This document shows positions 10,590 through 24,079 of a stretch of 54,417 bases of DNA, piece by piece. A model generated the notes under the pieces. That model worked only from the letters and a program-made list of their open reading frames with translations. It did no database searches and was not told where the DNA came from. Source of the DNA: Kofleriaceae bacterium (GTDB taxonomy: Bacteria; Myxococcota_A; Polyangia; Haliangiales; Haliangiaceae); the NCBI GenBank assembly GCA_018058095.1, contig JAGPCO010000001.1, positions 1-54,417 on the forward strand, read 5' to 3'. Numbering within the stretch: the first letter of the stretch is position 1; each line of letters opens with the position of its first letter. The position numbers were made by a program, and so were the translations under genes.

Positions 10590-12917
<2,328 letters not shown>

Positions 12918-12996
12918 CCGGCGGCCCGGCGGCAGTCCGGCCCCAGCGCGGTCCCGACCGCGGCGTGGTCGGATTCTCGTGCGAGGTCGCGCGGTT

Positions 12997-13035
12997 TTGA
13001 TTTTGGTTTTCATTTTCCTTGAAAACCACTTTCAA
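12997..13035 (+). promoter_or_regulatory. AT-rich palindromic operator, Fur-box-like, upstream of porin/imelysin operon
   Basis: An AT-rich island stands out in GC-rich surroundings. TTGAAA (13019-13024) and TTTCAA (13030-13035) form a perfect dyad with a 5-nt spacer. The 15-mer TGAAAACCACTTTCA (13020-13034) matches the 7-1-7 Fur consensus TGATAAT-N-ATTATCA at 10 of 14 positions. An overlapping dyad pairs GGTTTTC (13005-13011) with GAAAACC (13021-13027). TTGATT at 12997 could be a -35 box with a -10 at about 13020 under the palindrome. The site ends 18 nt before the GTG of the porin gene, as expected for a repressor operator. Fur control is an inference supported by the imelysin downstream. 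Confidence 0.55.
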
Positions 13036-13053
13036 CTCTGGCCAGGTAGCGAA

Positions 13054-14406
13054 GTGTTTCCCAGCCGCCCGCGCATCCCTGCTTACCTGTATCTGGCCTG
13101 GGCCCTCGTGCTGCTGCCGACATTGCCTGCGACCGCGGCCCGGGCCGACGGCGTGGTGTCGAGCGGCGCGTTCGACCTGGCCTTCGGCGGCTACGGCGAG
13201 CTGGGCGCCGCCTTCCACGACTTCGGCGCCGACCAGAACCGGGCCGGAGGCGCGCTCGACGACCGCCGGCTCGAGCTGGACACCACCCGCTTCGTCGCGG
13301 TGATGGAGGCGACCATGCCGATCGGCCTCGAGGTCGAGGCCGAGGTCGAGTTCGAGCACGGCGGCACCGGCGGGGCGCGAGAGATCGAGTACGAGGAGTT
13401 CGGCGAGTTCGAGACCGAGGTCGAAAAAGGCGGCGAGGTGATCGTCGAGGAGCTGTACGTCAAGCGCACCCTCGCCGCCGGTCGCCTGCAGCTGGCGGCC
13501 GGGCGCTTCTACGTCGCCCTGGGCCACCTCGGCACCTACTACCGGCCGACCGACTACCTCGGCGCGGTCCGGTCCGAAGCCGAGACGACGATCTTCCCGG
13601 GCCAGTGGGACGAGATGGGCCTGGCGCTCACCGCCCAGCTTGGTCGCGCCCCGGGCACGCTCGGCGGCCGGGTTCGCCTGACCGCGCAGCTGGTGAACGG
13701 CCTCGACTCGGCCGGCTTCTCGTCGCGGGCCTGGGTCGCGTCGGGCCACCAGGGCGCGTACGAGACGGTGCGGGCGTCGAGCCTGGCCGGGGTGGCCCGG
13801 GTCGACGTGGTGCTGGCGCCTGGGACCGAGGTCGGCGCCGCTGGCTACGTCGGTGGCTCGTCGCGCAACCGGCCCAAGGCTGACCTGGTGCGTGAGTGCA
13901 CCGAGGCCGAGCGCGACGGCGACGACGTCGCCCCGTGCGGCTACGTCGCCGGCACGGTGGCCATCGGCGAGGTCCACGGCCGGCTCAGCGCCGGCGGCTG
14001 GCGCGGCCAGGCCCTCGTCGTCGTCGGCCACCTCGCCAACGCCGACGACATCAGCGCCCGCAACGATCGCCTCAGCAACAACGCAGGGGTCGACCGCACC
14101 CCGGTCGCCGACAACGCCGTCGCCGCCAGCGCCGAGCTCGGCTTCGACGTGGCGCCGGCGCTCGGGCTGTGTGTCGACAACGCGCTGCTGCCGTTCGCTC
14201 GGGTCGACTACCTCGACACCATGGCCCGGGTTCGGCCCGAGCTGTTCGACAACCCGCGCTTCGAGCGCACCACGGTCGGGCTTGGCCTGACCTACCTGTT
14301 CAAGAACGCCTTCACCACCAAGCTCGACGTCCAGCGCCGCTGGTTCGGCTCGGCCGACCTGCGCGCGGAGCACACCGTGCGCGCCACCACCGGCTTCGTC
14401 TTCTGA
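13054..14406 (+). CDS. Outer-membrane beta-barrel porin-like protein
   Basis: About 450 residues. GTG at 13054 is chosen because it has an AGG 8-10 nt upstream, gives a normal signal peptide (FPSRPRIPAYLYLAWALVLL, cleavage after ATAARA), and leaves the palindromic operator outside the gene. The mature part has short alternating beta strands with Gly/Asp turns, acidic loops (EIEYEEFGEFETEVEKGG), and ends in a C-terminal Phe (TTGFVF), the usual barrel-assembly signal. It is followed after 21 nt by the imelysin gene. It is likely the outer-membrane channel of this iron-related operon; the substrate is not shown. Confidence 0.75.
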   Translation: MFPSRPRIPAYLYLAWALVLLPTLPATAARADGVVSSGAFDLAFGGYGELGAAFHDFGADQNRAGGALDDRRLELDTTRFVAVMEATMPIGLEVEAEVEFEHGGTGGAREIEYEEFGEFETEVEKGGEVIVEELYVKRTLAAGRLQLAAGRFYVALGHLGTYYRPTDYLGAVRSEAETTIFPGQWDEMGLALTAQLGRAPGTLGGRVRLTAQLVNGLDSAGFSSRAWVASGHQGAYETVRASSLAGVARVDVVLAPGTEVGAAGYVGGSSRNRPKADLVRECTEAERDGDDVAPCGYVAGTVAIGEVHGRLSAGGWRGQALVVVGHLANADDISARNDRLSNNAGVDRTPVADNAVAASAELGFDVAPALGLCVDNALLPFARVDYLDTMARVRPELFDNPRFERTTVGLGLTYLFKNAFTTKLDVQRRWFGSADLRAEHTVRATTGFVF

Positions 14407-14427
14407 CCTCGGATGAAAGGAACTCTC

Positions 14428-15495
14428 ATGCGCCCTGTCCTGCTCGCCTTGCTCACCCCGACCGCGCTCGTCCTCGCCGCCTGCGGCGACGACGGCGGCA
14501 CCACGCCATCCGGCTTCGACGACGCCCAGGTCATCGCCGACTTCGCCGACCAGGTCGTGGTGCCGACCTACCAGCTGCTGGCGACCCGCACCGCCGCGCT
14601 CGACGCCGCGCTGGCGACGCTGGCGGCGACGCCGAACGAGGCCAACCTGACCGCCGCCCGCCAGGCCTGGGTGGCGATGCGGGTGCCGTGGGAGCAGAGC
14701 GAGGCGTTCCTGTTCGGCCCGGTCTCGGCCCAGGGCTGGGACCCGGCGATGGACAGCTGGCCGCTCAACCAGACCGACCTCGACGCCGTGCTGGCGACGC
14801 AGGATCCGCTGACCCAGGCCTACGTGCGCAACCTGCCGGAGACGCAGAAGGGCTTCCACACTCTCGAGTACCTGCTGTGGGGCGTCGACTCGGCCAAGCC
14901 GGCGACCGCGCTGACCCCGCGCGAGCTCGAGTACGTCGGCGCGCTCGGCGATGAGCTGGTGCTGATCACCACCGATCTGGTCGCCAGCTGGACCGACGCC
15001 GGTGGCTACCGCGCCACGTTCGCGACCGCTGGCCAGGCCGGCAACACGGCGTACCCGTCGCTGGGCGCCGCGGCCCAGGAGATCCTGGGCGGCATGAGCG
15101 GCATCTGCGACGAGGTCGCCAACGGCAAGATCGCCGATCCGTACGACGCACGTGACCCCAACCTGGTCGAGAGCCAGTACAGCTTCAACTCGCTGCTCGA
15201 CTTCGCCGACAACGTGCGCGGCGTGCGCAACGCCTACACCGGCGACGCCGAGGCGGCCGGCACCATGGGCCGGGGCCTGGCCGACGTGGTGGCCGCGGCC
15301 GATCCGGCGCTCGACACCCGCCTGCGGGCCGAGCTCGACGCCGCGATCGCGGCCCTCGCCGCTGTCCCAGGCCTGTTCCGCGACGCCATCACCGACCCGG
15401 CCAACGACGCGGCGATCGAGGCGGCGCAGGCCGCGATCCGGACCGTGCAGGCGACGATCGACGGCGACCTGACCACGGTCGTGCTGGGGAGCTGA
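14428..15495 (+). CDS. Imelysin-family (peptidase M75/IrpA-like) lipoprotein
   Basis: A 355-residue lipoprotein. Signal MRPVLLALLTPTALVLAA precedes Cys19 in AACGDD. The imelysin GxHxxE motif is seen as GFHTLEYLLWG, with the helical pattern of the two four-helix bundles around it. Imelysins (IrpA, ICMP, EfeO-like) are iron-regulated envelope proteins implicated in iron uptake, despite the M75 peptidase name. ATG at 14428 has AAGGA 6 nt upstream; an earlier in-frame ATG at 14413 is possible. The di-haem oxidoreductase gene starts 2 nt after its stop. Confidence 0.88.
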   Translation: MRPVLLALLTPTALVLAACGDDGGTTPSGFDDAQVIADFADQVVVPTYQLLATRTAALDAALATLAATPNEANLTAARQAWVAMRVPWEQSEAFLFGPVSAQGWDPAMDSWPLNQTDLDAVLATQDPLTQAYVRNLPETQKGFHTLEYLLWGVDSAKPATALTPRELEYVGALGDELVLITTDLVASWTDAGGYRATFATAGQAGNTAYPSLGAAAQEILGGMSGICDEVANGKIADPYDARDPNLVESQYSFNSLLDFADNVRGVRNAYTGDAEAAGTMGRGLADVVAAADPALDTRLRAELDAAIAALAAVPGLFRDAITDPANDAAIEAAQAAIRTVQATIDGDLTTVVLGS

Positions 15496-15497
15496 AC

Positions 15498-16835
15498 GTG
15501 CGGCGCGCGGTGCACGCAGCGGGGCCAGCGCTGACGGCCCTGCTGAGCCTCGGGGCGGTGGCCTGCGGCGACAACCTCGGCGCCGAGGTCACCGCCGGCG
15601 GCGCCACCACCGTCGGCGACCGCACCTCGAATGCGTTCAGCCTGCCAGCGCCCGGGTTGAGCCCGGCCGAGCTCGCGCGCCACCTCGATGGGGACCTGGA
15701 CTTCGACTCCACCTTCGTGACCGGGGACGCGCCGGTCAACGGCGGGCTGGGCCCGCGCTTCAACAACACCTCGTGCGGCGCCTGTCACAGCCGGGACGGA
15801 CGAGGCCGCGCCGTGATCGGCGACGGCCCGACCTCGCAGCTGCTGGTGCGGGTCAGCCTGCCGAGCGGGACGCCCGACGTGCCGGGTGGCGCCGTGCCCG
15901 TGCCGGGCATGGGCACGCAGCTGCAGGACCACGCGGTGTTCGGCGCCGAGCCCGATGCCCGCGTCACGCTGGGGTGGGACGAGCTGCCGGGTCGCTACGG
16001 CGACGGCACGCCGTACGTGCTGCGAGCGCCACGCCTGACCATCGTCGGCGTGGCGGCGCCACTGCCATTCGAGGCGTTGACCTCGCTGCGCCTGCCGCCC
16101 GCGGTGTTCGGGCTCGGGCTGCTCGAGGCGGTCGACGAGGCCGACCTGCACGCGCTGGCCGACCCCGACGACGCCGATGGCGATGGCATCTCCGGCCGGG
16201 TCAACCAGGTGTGGGACCCGGTGACCGGCACGACCCGGATCGGTCGGTTTGGTGTCAAGGCCAACACCAGCGACCTCACGGTGCAGGCGGCCGCGGCCTA
16301 CGCCAACGACATGGGGATCGGCAACCCGATCGCCAGCGACACCGCCGGCGGTGCCGCCGACCTGGCGCTGGCCACCGTCGAGGATGCCGCGTTCTACACT
16401 CGCACCCTGGCTGTGCCGGCGCCGACCGCGCCGACGCCGGCCAGCACGCGCGGGCAGGATCACTTCGACGCCTTCGGCTGCGCCGGCTGCCACGTGCCGC
16501 ACCTGCGCACCGGCCCGAGCCCGATCGCCGTGCTGGCCGACCAGGACTTCGCGCCGTACACCGACCTCCTCTTGCACGACCTCGGCGACGGGCTGGCCGA
16601 CGGCCGCCCCGACTTCCTCGCCAGCGGGCGCGAGTGGCGCACGCCGCCGCTGTGGGGCCTGGGACTGGTCGAGACCGTGCTGCCGGGCGCGACCTACCTG
16701 CACGACGGCCGGGCCCGCACCCTCGCGGAGGCCATCCTGTGGCACGGCGGCGAGGCCGAGGCCGCGCGCGAGCGCTTCCGCACTGCCGACGCCGCGACCC
16801 GGGCCGACTTGGTCGCGTTCCTGCGCAGCCGGTAG
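15498..16835 (+). CDS. Di-haem oxidoreductase (DUF1111/thiol-oxidoreductase-like) lipoprotein
   Basis: A 445-residue secreted protein with lipobox Cys23 (LGAVACGDN). It has two c-type haem motifs, CGACH at 93-97 (after RFNNTS) and CAGCH at 328-332, the two-haem layout of the DUF1111 family. The segment FLHDGRA-like TYLHDGRARTLAEAILWHGG is the family's conserved C-terminal signature. Such enzymes are commonly encoded beside imelysins and are thought to handle iron redox at the envelope. GTG start, 2 nt after the imelysin stop. It ends 18 nt from a convergent gene. Confidence 0.88.
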   Translation: MRRAVHAAGPALTALLSLGAVACGDNLGAEVTAGGATTVGDRTSNAFSLPAPGLSPAELARHLDGDLDFDSTFVTGDAPVNGGLGPRFNNTSCGACHSRDGRGRAVIGDGPTSQLLVRVSLPSGTPDVPGGAVPVPGMGTQLQDHAVFGAEPDARVTLGWDELPGRYGDGTPYVLRAPRLTIVGVAAPLPFEALTSLRLPPAVFGLGLLEAVDEADLHALADPDDADGDGISGRVNQVWDPVTGTTRIGRFGVKANTSDLTVQAAAAYANDMGIGNPIASDTAGGAADLALATVEDAAFYTRTLAVPAPTAPTPASTRGQDHFDAFGCAGCHVPHLRTGPSPIAVLADQDFAPYTDLLLHDLGDGLADGRPDFLASGREWRTPPLWGLGLVETVLPGATYLHDGRARTLAEAILWHGGEAEAARERFRTADAATRADLVAFLRSR

Positions 16836-16853: not shown

Positions 16854-17819
16854 CTACTCGACGACGGGGCAGTTGACGTCGGCGACGCCGGTGGCGAGGA
16901 CGTTGGCGGCCTGGGCCGAGGCCAGGTCGGTCACGCTGGCGAAGTCGGCGTTGTCGTAGACCGCGACCGACCACAGCGGCGAGTAGTCGCTGTCCCCCGG
17001 GACCGAGCCGAGCACGTTGTGGGTGCGGCCCTGGCCATCGACGACGAAGCCGGAGGCCGGGCCCCCACCCGGCTGATCCGGGTTGGTGTTGAACGTGACG
17101 TAGATCGGCGAGGTCGACATCGACGCCCCGGTCAGCGGCGCCTCCTCGAACGAGAAGTAATTGATGACCGTGTCCTGGTACCAGCCGCGCTGCAGCGCCG
17201 GCGAACCGCCGCCGAGGCGCTTGCTGGCGGTCGACCCGGCCGGCACGACCGGGCAGTTGACGATGTTCTCGGTCGGCTCGAGCGTGAGGCCCTCGGCCAG
17301 GATGGCCTCCCGCGAGGTGATGGTGTTGGCGACGTAGTCGGTCGGGACGATGACCTTGGTCACCTTCCAGAAGTCGCTGTAGCCGGCGCTGCCCGGCTTG
17401 ACGTCGACGATGTTGAGCTGGCCGGCGATGGGGGCGGACTCACCGGCGTGAAAGAAGACGAAGATGTCGGCGGTCGCCGTCGGCTGGACGTCGAAGTTGT
17501 AGTAGCTGACCGGCTGGCCAGCCGGGCCCAGGCCGGTCGTGATGAACGGGGCCTGGTCGAAGGCGACGGGCGCGTTGGCCGGGGGCAGGCCGTTGTTGCC
17601 GTCGCGCACCATCAGCATGCCGGTGCCAGCGGCGAAGCGATCGACCGCCGTCACCTCGGCCGCGTCGGGATCACGTGGGCTGAGGACCGGGTCGTCATCA
17701 CCCGCGCAGCCGGTGGCGGCGGCGGCGAGGAACATGACGTAGGCGAGCTGACCGGTGGCGAGCGCGACGCGCGCGCTGACCGACGCGAAGCGCGTCGGCG
17801 ACGAGGTTACGGAAGACAT
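16854..17819 (-). CDS. Secreted protein of unknown function
   Basis: A 321-residue protein. The N-terminus has a hydrophobic segment (TGQLAYVMFLAAAATG) before Cys39 in GCAGDDDP, so it is probably a lipoprotein. An Asp/Ala-rich spacer follows. The mature domain includes FDVQPTATADIFVFFHAG and YSDFWKVTKVIVPTDYV and contains two well-separated NCPVV motifs, the second at the very C-terminus (VNCPVVE), suggesting a disulfide. I do not recognise the family. The ATG has a clear AGGAG 5 nt upstream and an ECF-like promoter pattern further up. It converges on the di-haem oxidoreductase gene. Confidence 0.75.
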   Translation of the reverse strand: MSSVTSSPTRFASVSARVALATGQLAYVMFLAAAATGCAGDDDPVLSPRDPDAAEVTAVDRFAAGTGMLMVRDGNNGLPPANAPVAFDQAPFITTGLGPAGQPVSYYNFDVQPTATADIFVFFHAGESAPIAGQLNIVDVKPGSAGYSDFWKVTKVIVPTDYVANTITSREAILAEGLTLEPTENIVNCPVVPAGSTASKRLGGGSPALQRGWYQDTVINYFSFEEAPLTGASMSTSPIYVTFNTNPDQPGGGPASGFVVDGQGRTHNVLGSVPGDSDYSPLWSVAVYDNADFASVTDLASAQAANVLATGVADVNCPVVE

Positions 17820-17851
17820 GTGAACTCCTGATCGGTTTGTGGTGCGCTCTC

Positions 17852-21956: not shown

Positions 21957-23171
21957 TCAGCGCGCCAACGCGAACGGGTCAGACACCGCCGGATCGTCGA
22001 CGAGGGTCTCGTCGCTCAGCGCGGTGAGGAAGGCGATGAGGTCGGCGCGCTGGTCGGGCGTGAGCGTGAACCCGCTCACGAACGGGCTCTTGTTGGGGTT
22101 GAGCCGGCCGTCGCCCGCGAACGGGCCGGAGGGGACGTCGCGCCCGCCCCGCTCGTAGATCGAGATGACCTCGTCGAGGGTGGCCACGCTGCCGTCGTGC
22201 ATGTACGGCGCGGTCAGGGCCACGTTGCGCAGGCTGGGTGGGCGGTACCGTCCGCGATCAGCGGGCGCGAAGGTGATCTCCCACAGGCCCTGATCGACGG
22301 CGGGGTAGTCGCCGGTGCCGCCGACGTTGTACAGGCCGGTGTTGAAGAACAGCGCCGGTGGCTCGGGCAGGCCGGCGTGGTCGGCGGCGATGGTGAAGTT
22401 GAAGCCGCCGTGGCAGTGGTGGCACTCGAAGGTCTCGGAGAAGAACATCTCCTGCCCGCGCAGCTCGGCCGCCGACAGCGCGCCGAGGTCACCCTGGCGG
22501 TAGCGGTCGACCCGCGAGTCACCCGAGATGAGGCGGCGCTGGAACGCGGCCAGCGCGCGGATCACGTTGGGCCAGGTCACCGGCGTCGCCTCCCCGGGGA
22601 AGGCCGCCGCGAACCGAGCCGGGTAGCCGGGGTCGGCCGACAGGCGGCCGAGGATCTCGTCCTCGTGCCCGGCCGCGCCCAGCTCGATCGGGTTGTCGCC
22701 GAAGATCGGCACCAGCGCCTGCTGCTCGAGCGACGGCAGCAGCGGGTTGGCCCAGGTCAGGGTCGGGCTGTACGCCACGTTGACCAGCCCCATCGCGTTG
22801 CGGCGCAGGACGACGCCGGTCGAGCCGGCCGAGGTGACGCGCCCGTCGGTGAAGGCGCGCGCCTGCAGGTGGCACGATCCACACGCCTGGGTCTCGTTGG
22901 CCGACAGGCGCACCTCGTAGAAGAGGAAGCGGCCGAGCTCGGCCAGCTCGGCGGTGAGCCGCTCGCTGGCCGGCAGGCGCGGCACCGGGAAGCCGGGCGG
23001 CAGCGCAAATGGCCAGGTCGGGACGGCGGCGTCGGGGTCGGCCGCCGCCGCGTCGACGATCACCCCGGCGTCGGCCGGGCCGGCCGCGTCGTCGCCACAG
23101 GCGGCCAGCCCGGCCGCGAACGCGCACAACGTGGCCACCGGCGCGGCCGGGGCGATCGCCTTGGCCCTCAT
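21957..23171 (-). CDS. MbnH-like di-haem enzyme (metallo-mystery pair / MXAN_0977 family)
   Basis: A 404-residue lipoprotein (Cys25 in GLAACGDD) of the MauG/cytochrome c peroxidase superfamily. Two c-type haem motifs are present, CGSCH at 97-101 and CHHCH at 250-254. The C-terminal PYMHDGSVATLDEVISIYERGG and the GRLNPNKSPFVSGFTL region are typical of the MbnH branch. MbnH oxidises a Trp of its partner MbnP to kynurenine, making a copper site. Its ATG overlaps the stop of the MbnP-like gene by one base (TGATG), so the pair is translationally coupled. Convergent with the kelch gene (18-nt gap). Confidence 0.9.
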   Translation of the reverse strand: MRAKAIAPAAPVATLCAFAAGLAACGDDAAGPADAGVIVDAAAADPDAAVPTWPFALPPGFPVPRLPASERLTAELAELGRFLFYEVRLSANETQACGSCHLQARAFTDGRVTSAGSTGVVLRRNAMGLVNVAYSPTLTWANPLLPSLEQQALVPIFGDNPIELGAAGHEDEILGRLSADPGYPARFAAAFPGEATPVTWPNVIRALAAFQRRLISGDSRVDRYRQGDLGALSAAELRGQEMFFSETFECHHCHGGFNFTIAADHAGLPEPPALFFNTGLYNVGGTGDYPAVDQGLWEITFAPADRGRYRPPSLRNVALTAPYMHDGSVATLDEVISIYERGGRDVPSGPFAGDGRLNPNKSPFVSGFTLTPDQRADLIAFLTALSDETLVDDPAVSDPFALAR

Positions 23172-24079
23172 CACCGCACCGTGAACAGCTGCTGGTCGGC
23201 GGCGACCGCGGTCTCGTAGGTCAGGCCGAGGCGCGGGAAGATCGGCAGGCACTCCGGGTCGGCCGGAAACGACATGCAGCCGGGCGCGGTCATCGGCGTG
23301 TTGACGCTCAGGTTGGACGTCGCCAGGACCGGGGCGATGTCGGCGACGATGGTGTCGGTCGCCGGATCGAAGCCGGTCAGCGCGATGCTCATGCGGTTGC
23401 CGTTGGTGCAGGCGCTGGTCGGCGGCGCGGCCGGATCGGCGCCCGGGCAGCCGGTCGAGCCCAGGTGCAGGTTGAAGCCGGCGGCGCCGATGGCGCCGTC
23501 GATCTTGAGGAACTTGTAGCCGGCGCGCCAGGCCCAGTGCATGCCAGGGGCGTTGAGCGGGGTGATGGCCGCGGCGTAGTCGAGGTGGTTCTTGTCCTCG
23601 GGCACGCCGACGACGAACGAGATCCCGTCGTAGCTGCCGGGCGGGACGGTACCGACCAGGGTGGTGTAGGTCGCGGTCGAGCCCATCTGGCAGGCGCCGG
23701 TGTTGTTCTCGAAGTCGAGCAGGGCCAGGCCGTCGGCCTGGTTGTCGTTGCCGGTCAGCGTGACCGGCACGCCAGCGCCACCGCCGACCGGGGTGAGCAG
23801 GACGCTGGACACGTAGAAGCGGAAGTCGGTGCCGACGTAGGCGGTGGGCGGCGTGCCCAGGCCCGGGTAGCTGGTGCCGCAGGCGAAGGCCTGGCCACCG
23901 ACCTCGGCCGCGAAGCGGATCGACACCGCCTGCGCCTGCGGGGCGGCGTCGGGGCTGCCGGCGGCGTCGGGGCTGGCCGGCGCGGCGTCGGCGTTGTGGT
24001 CGTGATCGTGCTCGTCGTCGCCGCAGGCAAGCAGGCTGACGGACAGGAGGGAGGCGAGGGAAACAGTGAGAATACGCAT
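23171..24079 (-). CDS. MbnP-like copper-binding protein (metallo-mystery pair four-Cys protein)
   Basis: A 302-residue lipoprotein (MRILTVSLASLLSVSLLACG, Cys19). Immediately after the lipid anchor is a His/Asp cluster DDEHDHDHNAD suited to metal binding. The mature domain has six Cys (67, 130, 211, 224, 268, 277) and the family's GMHWAWRAGYKF segment (residues 179-190), which carries Trp182 and Trp184, one of which is probably the residue turned into kynurenine. MbnP proteins bind copper in the periplasm or on the surface. It is encoded directly before its MbnH-like enzyme, with one-base overlap, and 128 nt after a Cys/His-rich small protein. Confidence 0.9.
   Translation of the reverse strand: MRILTVSLASLLSVSLLACGDDEHDHDHNADAAPASPDAAGSPDAAPQAQAVSIRFAAEVGGQAFACGTSYPGLGTPPTAYVGTDFRFYVSSVLLTPVGGGAGVPVTLTGNDNQADGLALLDFENNTGACQMGSTATYTTLVGTVPPGSYDGISFVVGVPEDKNHLDYAAAITPLNAPGMHWAWRAGYKFLKIDGAIGAAGFNLHLGSTGCPGADPAAPPTSACTNGNRMSIALTGFDPATDTIVADIAPVLATSNLSVNTPMTAPGCMSFPADPECLPIFPRLGLTYETAVAADQQLFTVR

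Follow-up and report, generated by a model that had tools for sequence, protein, structure and literature searches.

A conserved porin-imelysin-di-haem oxidoreductase operon behind a predicted Fur box in a Kofleriaceae bacterium: a probable iron-acquisition unit of the cell envelope

Operons in which Fur regulates genes for imelysin and DUF1111 proteins have been described in Pseudomonas aeruginosa (PA4370-PA4373) and Vibrio cholerae (VC1264-VC1266) (PMC3143127; this paper, PMC545781 and PMC3577903 are cited here for the parts consulted). We analyzed a related operon within a stretch of 54,417 nucleotides (nt), hereafter the window, from a Kofleriaceae bacterium (contig JAGPCO010000001.1, positions 1 to 54,417), in which a porin gene precedes the genes for an imelysin and a DUF1111 di-haem oxidoreductase (DHOR). 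Like the window operon, PA4370-PA4373 of P. aeruginosa combines a Fur-regulated imelysin with a DUF1111/EfeB-like partner. In contrast, the Pseudomonas and Vibrio operons include a second, GxxxxE imelysin-like protein (PMC3143127), whereas the Kofleriaceae genome has a single imelysin match, that of the window operon. The word ‘porin’ does not occur in the text of that paper, and among the papers listed by searches of the open-access literature no title or abstract opening concerns a porin-imelysin operon, although three of them (PMC7901474, PMC7481331, PMC5435343) contain both words. Fur-regulated imelysin-DUF1111 operons are thus already known, while no description of the porin with its acidic hairpin as a fixed partner was found in these searches. 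We consider it quite probable that the three genes form an envelope iron-acquisition unit repressed by Fur and iron, in which an acidic porin would feed a periplasmic imelysin and DHOR and perhaps FeoAB.

The EfeUOB system resembles the window operon in joining an imelysin-like domain to an iron-linked peroxidase partner, EfeB, which is described as a likely DUF1111 member (PMC3143127) and as a DyP-family protein (PMC3577903). However, the window imelysin scored 32.7 bits against the curated EfeO model, well under its cut-off of 270, and the EfeU (FTR1) permease is not among the three window genes, no genome search for EfeU having been made. Porins with Fur boxes (psp) have been predicted in Geobacter metallireducens and Desulfuromonas (PMC545781), as we predict for the window porin. 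The consulted part of that paper mentions neither imelysin nor DHOR with them.

All three window genes are encoded on the forward strand. The porin (13054-14406, GTG start) has a signal-peptide-like N-terminus and a predicted 16-strand barrel. It is followed by the imelysin (Peptidase_M75; 14413-15495, with an alternative ATG start at 14428), which carries a lipobox cysteine (C24) and a GxHxxE motif at 14851-14868, and by the DHOR (15498-16835, GTG start) with CxxCH haem sites at 15774-15788 and 16479-16493. The lipobox cysteine and residues G147, H149 and E152 of the GxHxxE motif are invariant in 10/10 aligned imelysins, as are both haem sites in 8/8 aligned DHOR proteins (two loci, L054 and L055, were omitted, their DHOR being cut by the locus end). 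The original prediction had named these genes correctly: the imelysin matches Pfam PF09375 (E-value 7e-73) and the DHOR matches PF06537 (6.2e-89), while the first gene, although without a Pfam match of its own, is predicted to be a porin by a structure model and structural alignment. Its spacings hold as well, with 2 nt between imelysin and DHOR and 21 nt between porin and imelysin when the latter starts at ATG 14428 (6 nt from the in-frame ATG 14413).

A palindrome upstream of the porin, TTGAAAACCACTTTCAA (13019-13035, no strand assigned), is best read as a Fur box and is our predicted operator. It agrees at 14 of 16 specified positions with the 17-base-pair (bp) delta-proteobacterial Fur box (dFUR) consensus WTGAAAATNATTTTCAW, which comes from sites preceding feoAB and fur genes; comparable sites in the table of the same paper are cTGAAAAcCgTTTTCAa before feoA-feoB of Desulfuromonas and tTGAAAATCAcTTTCAg before fur of G. 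metallireducens (PMC545781). At up to two mismatches the palindrome is the sole match in the window, against a shuffle mean of 0.02. It had been put forward as Fur-like, and located at 13019-13035 it indeed agrees at 10 of 14 positions with the 7-1-7 Fur motif; likewise, its end lies 18 nt before the porin start, given the GTG at 13054. The claim that it stands alone is true of close matches only, since a weaker one, TTGATTTTGGTTTTCAT (12997-13013, no strand assigned; 12/16 to the dFUR consensus), is found 22 bp upstream of the main box. A 22-bp tandem of box-like matches is also present in the related locus L050. Alternatively, the stretch 12997-13013 may represent the T-rich tail belonging to a terminator-like hairpin at 12977-12994, which overlaps the start of the weaker-box stretch (one found, 0.4 expected) and perhaps marks where the UvrD-type helicase gene upstream ends. 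Inside the operon, ATGAAAGGAACTCTCAT (14413-14429) is a further weak match (12/16, reached by 0/200 shuffles) that overlaps the upstream imelysin start; no such intra-operon match was found in the two other porin-linked loci of the same comparison.

The genome of the organism (7.57 megabases in 227 contigs) contains two occurrences of the exact pattern TTGAAA-N5-TTTCAA. A search with the published dFUR consensus at up to three mismatches returned six genomic sites, compared with none for a reversed-pattern control. Two of them share the top rank at two mismatches: the window site and C112:57952. The latter lies directly before feoA-feoB, the genes of the ferrous-iron transporter, which are confirmed by Pfam matches to FeoA (1.1e-19) and FeoB_N (5.5e-44). 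We judge Fur control of the operon likely. The genome also encodes three FUR-family proteins, one of which looks like Fur by eye, and has 13 matches to TonB-receptor barrels.

The arrangement of porin, imelysin and DHOR is a conserved module. A porin search in 192 genomes of the class (own genome included) gave matches in 33 of them. Nine of the 14 other porin loci fetched have porin, imelysin and DHOR in the same order and on the same strand, two of these with about 2.8 kilobases (kb) between imelysin and DHOR, encoding a cytochrome-like protein in one case; the remaining five contain distant porins without imelysin or DHOR. We also compiled a set of named genomes, the best 80 of 115 relatives selected by their porin, in which eight of the nine loci recur, so that the two sets are not independent. 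Here, imelysin is found beside the porin in 79/80 loci and DHOR in 77/80, with all three genes in that order on one strand in 75/80. Among the three loci lacking DHOR, L115 and L138 end just past the last gene found, and L105 has 4.3 kb after imelysin without a DHOR gene; the gene order differs in L087 and L131. According to record titles, with named genera assigned by us, the 80 loci belong to about ten phyla (Myxococcota, Oligoflexia/Bdellovibrionota, Dadabacteria, Latescibacterota, Calditrichota, Gemmatimonadota, Poribacteria, Chlorobiota/Kapabacteria, Armatimonadetes, and Bacteroidota), although some titles may be wrong, because L109 and L110 share similar upstream DNA under different phyla. 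This conserved neighborhood supports the proposal, made when the operon was first noted, that the three genes work together.

The box is conserved along with the module. Of the first ten operon loci, which include the own one, eight have a top dFUR score upstream of the porin that none of 300 shuffles attained; in L053, one of 300 did so. Another locus, L056/L095, was dropped as box evidence, being AT-rich with a score reached by 84/300 shuffles. For the 79 of 80 named loci with enough upstream DNA, a box was called significant when its score under the dFUR or the Escherichia coli 19-mer model fell at or below 1% of shuffles. A search for the palindrome before orthologous operons had been proposed at the outset as a test of the idea, and it turned out in favor: a significant box precedes the porin in 51/79 loci, compared with 3/78 before imelysin, 1/75 before DHOR, and 1/240 random tiles. 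The positive loci comprise 20/24 from Myxococcota, 25/28 from Poribacteria, 3/4 from Oligoflexia/Bdellovibrionota, 2/2 titled Deltaproteobacteria, and 1/5 unassigned. When the upstream DNA was grouped by single linkage, boxes were present in 18/35 clusters and 13/27 singletons. A dyad scan without any motif model was uninformative (18/79 loci at or below 5% of shuffles). Imelysin occurs in 101/184 genomes of the class, and the 30 best of these loci include three that are porin-linked and 27 with imelysin and DHOR and no porin within flanks of about 1.5 kb. A box precedes the imelysin in 25 of the 27 porin-less loci; therefore, the box tends to precede whichever gene is first.

The form of the upstream site varies among lineages. 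In many Poribacteria loci and two Oligoflexia loci (L085, L103), the site approximates the E. coli Fur box. In most Myxococcaceae loci (L067-L073, L076-L079), it resembles TTGATTCTGGTTTGCAAAATCAA in form and differs from the compact box seen in other myxobacteria. Four Latescibacterota loci without a Fur box (L091-L094) have a common palindrome before the porin, TGTTTTA-N4-TAAAACA, with variants, which is perhaps the site of another metal regulator. In Chlorobiota/Kapabacteria-like loci (L109, L110, L112, L114), TTTGGACTTAGTTTA(G/A)ATT or a close form replaces the Fur box in this position. Two distant porins without imelysin (L059, L060) have strong boxes (15/16), which hints that Fur boxes precede a broader family of porins; for the two others scored (L057, L061), the score before the porin was not significant.

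Instead of Fur, a PerR- or Zur-like member of the FUR family could occupy the operator, and the operon would then answer peroxide or zinc rather than iron. The three FUR-family genes of the genome would allow this, and a di-haem peroxidase-like enzyme would suit peroxide stress. However, the sole other top-scoring site in the genome precedes feoAB, the matched consensus itself stems from sites in front of feoAB and fur genes (PMC545781), and the Poribacteria and Oligoflexia sites just mentioned approach the E. coli Fur box. We therefore regard a PerR- or Zur-like regulator as unlikely and retain Fur as the putative binder.

The window porin has no match in Pfam, including Porin_O_P (PF07396) at E-values up to 1, although 6/10 aligned orthologues match this family at the same threshold (best 2.5e-7). 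It also has no match in NCBIfam at E-values up to 0.1, and a profile search by sequence against solved structures returned nothing up to E = 1. An AlphaFold2 model built from a 62-row alignment (predicted local distance difference test score, pLDDT, 85.6; predicted template modelling score, pTM, 0.83) has 16 long strands. In VIA-align, the best structural-realignment matches, tied, are OprP (2o4v; Z 26.6, root-mean-square deviation 5.1, 321 residues, 12% identity) and OprO (Z 26.3, as for 4rjx and 4rjw), followed by other porins at 24.2 and below. We thus predict a 16-strand barrel resembling OprP and OprO, phosphate-selective porins of the Porin_O_P family. In contrast to OprP, which is named for its arginine ladder for phosphate (entry title), the window porin has an acidic strand and hairpin, encoded at 13330-13449 on the forward strand (residues 93-132, as delimited from the structure model). 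Glutamates E95, E97, E99, and E101 of strand 3 alternate with non-acidic, mostly hydrophobic residues, and the hairpin between strands 3 and 4 (about residues 102-127) has the consensus ELEYEEFGEFExEVEKGGE. In porins, periplasmic turns are short and outer loops long, and by this usual rule the hairpin would face outward.

Conservation of these glutamates in the alignment based on the 80 loci was discarded as proof, being circular, because the loci had been found with patterns from that stretch. In its place, a search was made with porin residues 140-450 only, which matched 77/282 genomes; the 30 best loci were examined together with 20 distant loci from a full-length porin search. In these 50 loci, with neighbors visible for about 1.5 kb on each side, the hairpin is present in 16/16 imelysin-linked porins and in 0/34 others. 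Five of the 34 loci without a hairpin have flanks shorter than about 1.5 kb, and ten of the 16 porins with a hairpin come from the own locus or from loci already present in the earlier sets. Most of the 34 hairpin-less porins keep the E-x-E-x-E-H strand. These counts bear on a further explanation, namely that the protein is a general diffusion porin that is first in the operon by happenstance. Its fold is that of an ordinary 16-strand porin, Foldseek ranks Omp-Pst1 first by E-value and OprP only 18th, and similar porins occur elsewhere without imelysin in the visible flanks. Nevertheless, imelysin stands beside the porin in all but one of the 80 named loci, and in all 50 examined the presence of the hairpin tells imelysin-linked porins from the others, which makes a general porin clearly unlikely.

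If the operon is an iron-acquisition unit, as we favor, its operation could be envisaged as follows. When iron is plentiful, Fur-Fe(II) on 13019-13035, and perhaps also on 12997-13013, would repress a single porin-imelysin-DHOR transcript; under iron shortage, feoAB and the operon would be derepressed together. The porin would then admit an iron cation or small iron complex across the outer membrane, the conserved glutamate strand and hairpin lining mouth and lumen with an acidic path that attracts cations. Cation selectivity of this kind is plausible. The lipoprotein imelysin, through its GxHxxE motif, would capture periplasmic iron, the di-haem DHOR would alter its redox state, and FeoAB or another importer would move ferrous iron inward. 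An iron role of the operon is probable.

Several observations weigh against this reading. A scan for sigma-70-type promoters found no match in 12850-13120 or through the operon, so the original prediction that the palindrome overlaps a candidate -10 element was not borne out. The looser TTGAAA-N5-TTTCAA pattern (up to two mismatches) has seven genomic sites against four for the reversed control; therefore, only the closest matches stand out. No box was found at the loci of the three FUR-family genes, where the best scores are 8-10/16. A significant box is missing from 28/79 named loci, including all those from Latescibacterota (0/8), Bacteroidota (0/2), Gemmatimonadota (0/1), and five single-locus groups (0/16 jointly). 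The orthologous porin was also not found in the 15 congeners listed, 14 of them having no match and one a distant match. In the porin model, the hairpin is of low confidence (block-mean pLDDT 51-63), and it is from residue alternation in the strand that we infer lumen-facing glutamates in strand 3. The box and an in-frame signal-peptide start of the MKxIF type overlap in six relatives (L052-L055, L059, L060); therefore, part of the match could be coding. Taken further, the palindrome might be a product of chance or a by-product of coding sequence; however, the box of the window and those of L048, L049, and L050 are non-coding, with 11-18 nt between them and the likely start, and the control regions rarely score, so that this explanation is extremely improbable. 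Finally, two imelysin-like proteins bound neither ferric ion nor haem in a melting assay (PMC3143127).

The last result would also suit an iron-regulated module that carries a different substrate, for example haem or some other metal cation, and the gene neighborhood is relevant here. Among the 80 related loci, of which 67 extend more than 2.5 kb past DHOR, genes downstream on the same strand encode a TonB-dependent receptor in 14 (17 at any position), an ABM monooxygenase in nine (nine at any position), a ferritin-like protein in five (five), and HmuY in three (five). These neighbors point to iron or haem handling; none of the four was seen beside the window operon. There, the next gene, encoding a DUF7482 protein (16854-17822, minus strand; 4.7e-7), is convergent with DHOR. 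Starting about 5 kb downstream of DHOR on the minus strand, genes for MbnP (PF20243, 1.8e-40) and then a di-haem CCP_MauG protein (1.9e-42) form an MbnP-MbnH-like pair (22143-24070), of a kind linked to copper. The HmuY-like proteins, the ABM monooxygenases, and this pair would fit a substrate other than iron. Yet HmuY and ABM are found in few loci, and a cation fits the acidic hairpin better than haem does, haem being anionic. On balance, we consider a different substrate somewhat unlikely and keep to iron as the probable one.

The role of imelysins and their DUF1111 partners is unsettled, and the recurrence of a porin partner in different phyla suggests an entry point for their substrate through the outer membrane. 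The acidic hairpin is a single, removable feature through which this can be tested. More tentatively, and with some doubt, the porin could be the first member of a class of outer-membrane channels dedicated to iron and independent of TonB. In this barrel, similar to OprP, the glutamate strand and hairpin would serve iron cations as the arginine ladder of OprP serves phosphate; the channel would always be coupled to periplasmic imelysin and DHOR, and would have spread to several phyla, with local iron regulators in control. If true, iron would have a way across the outer membrane that possibly works without TonB.

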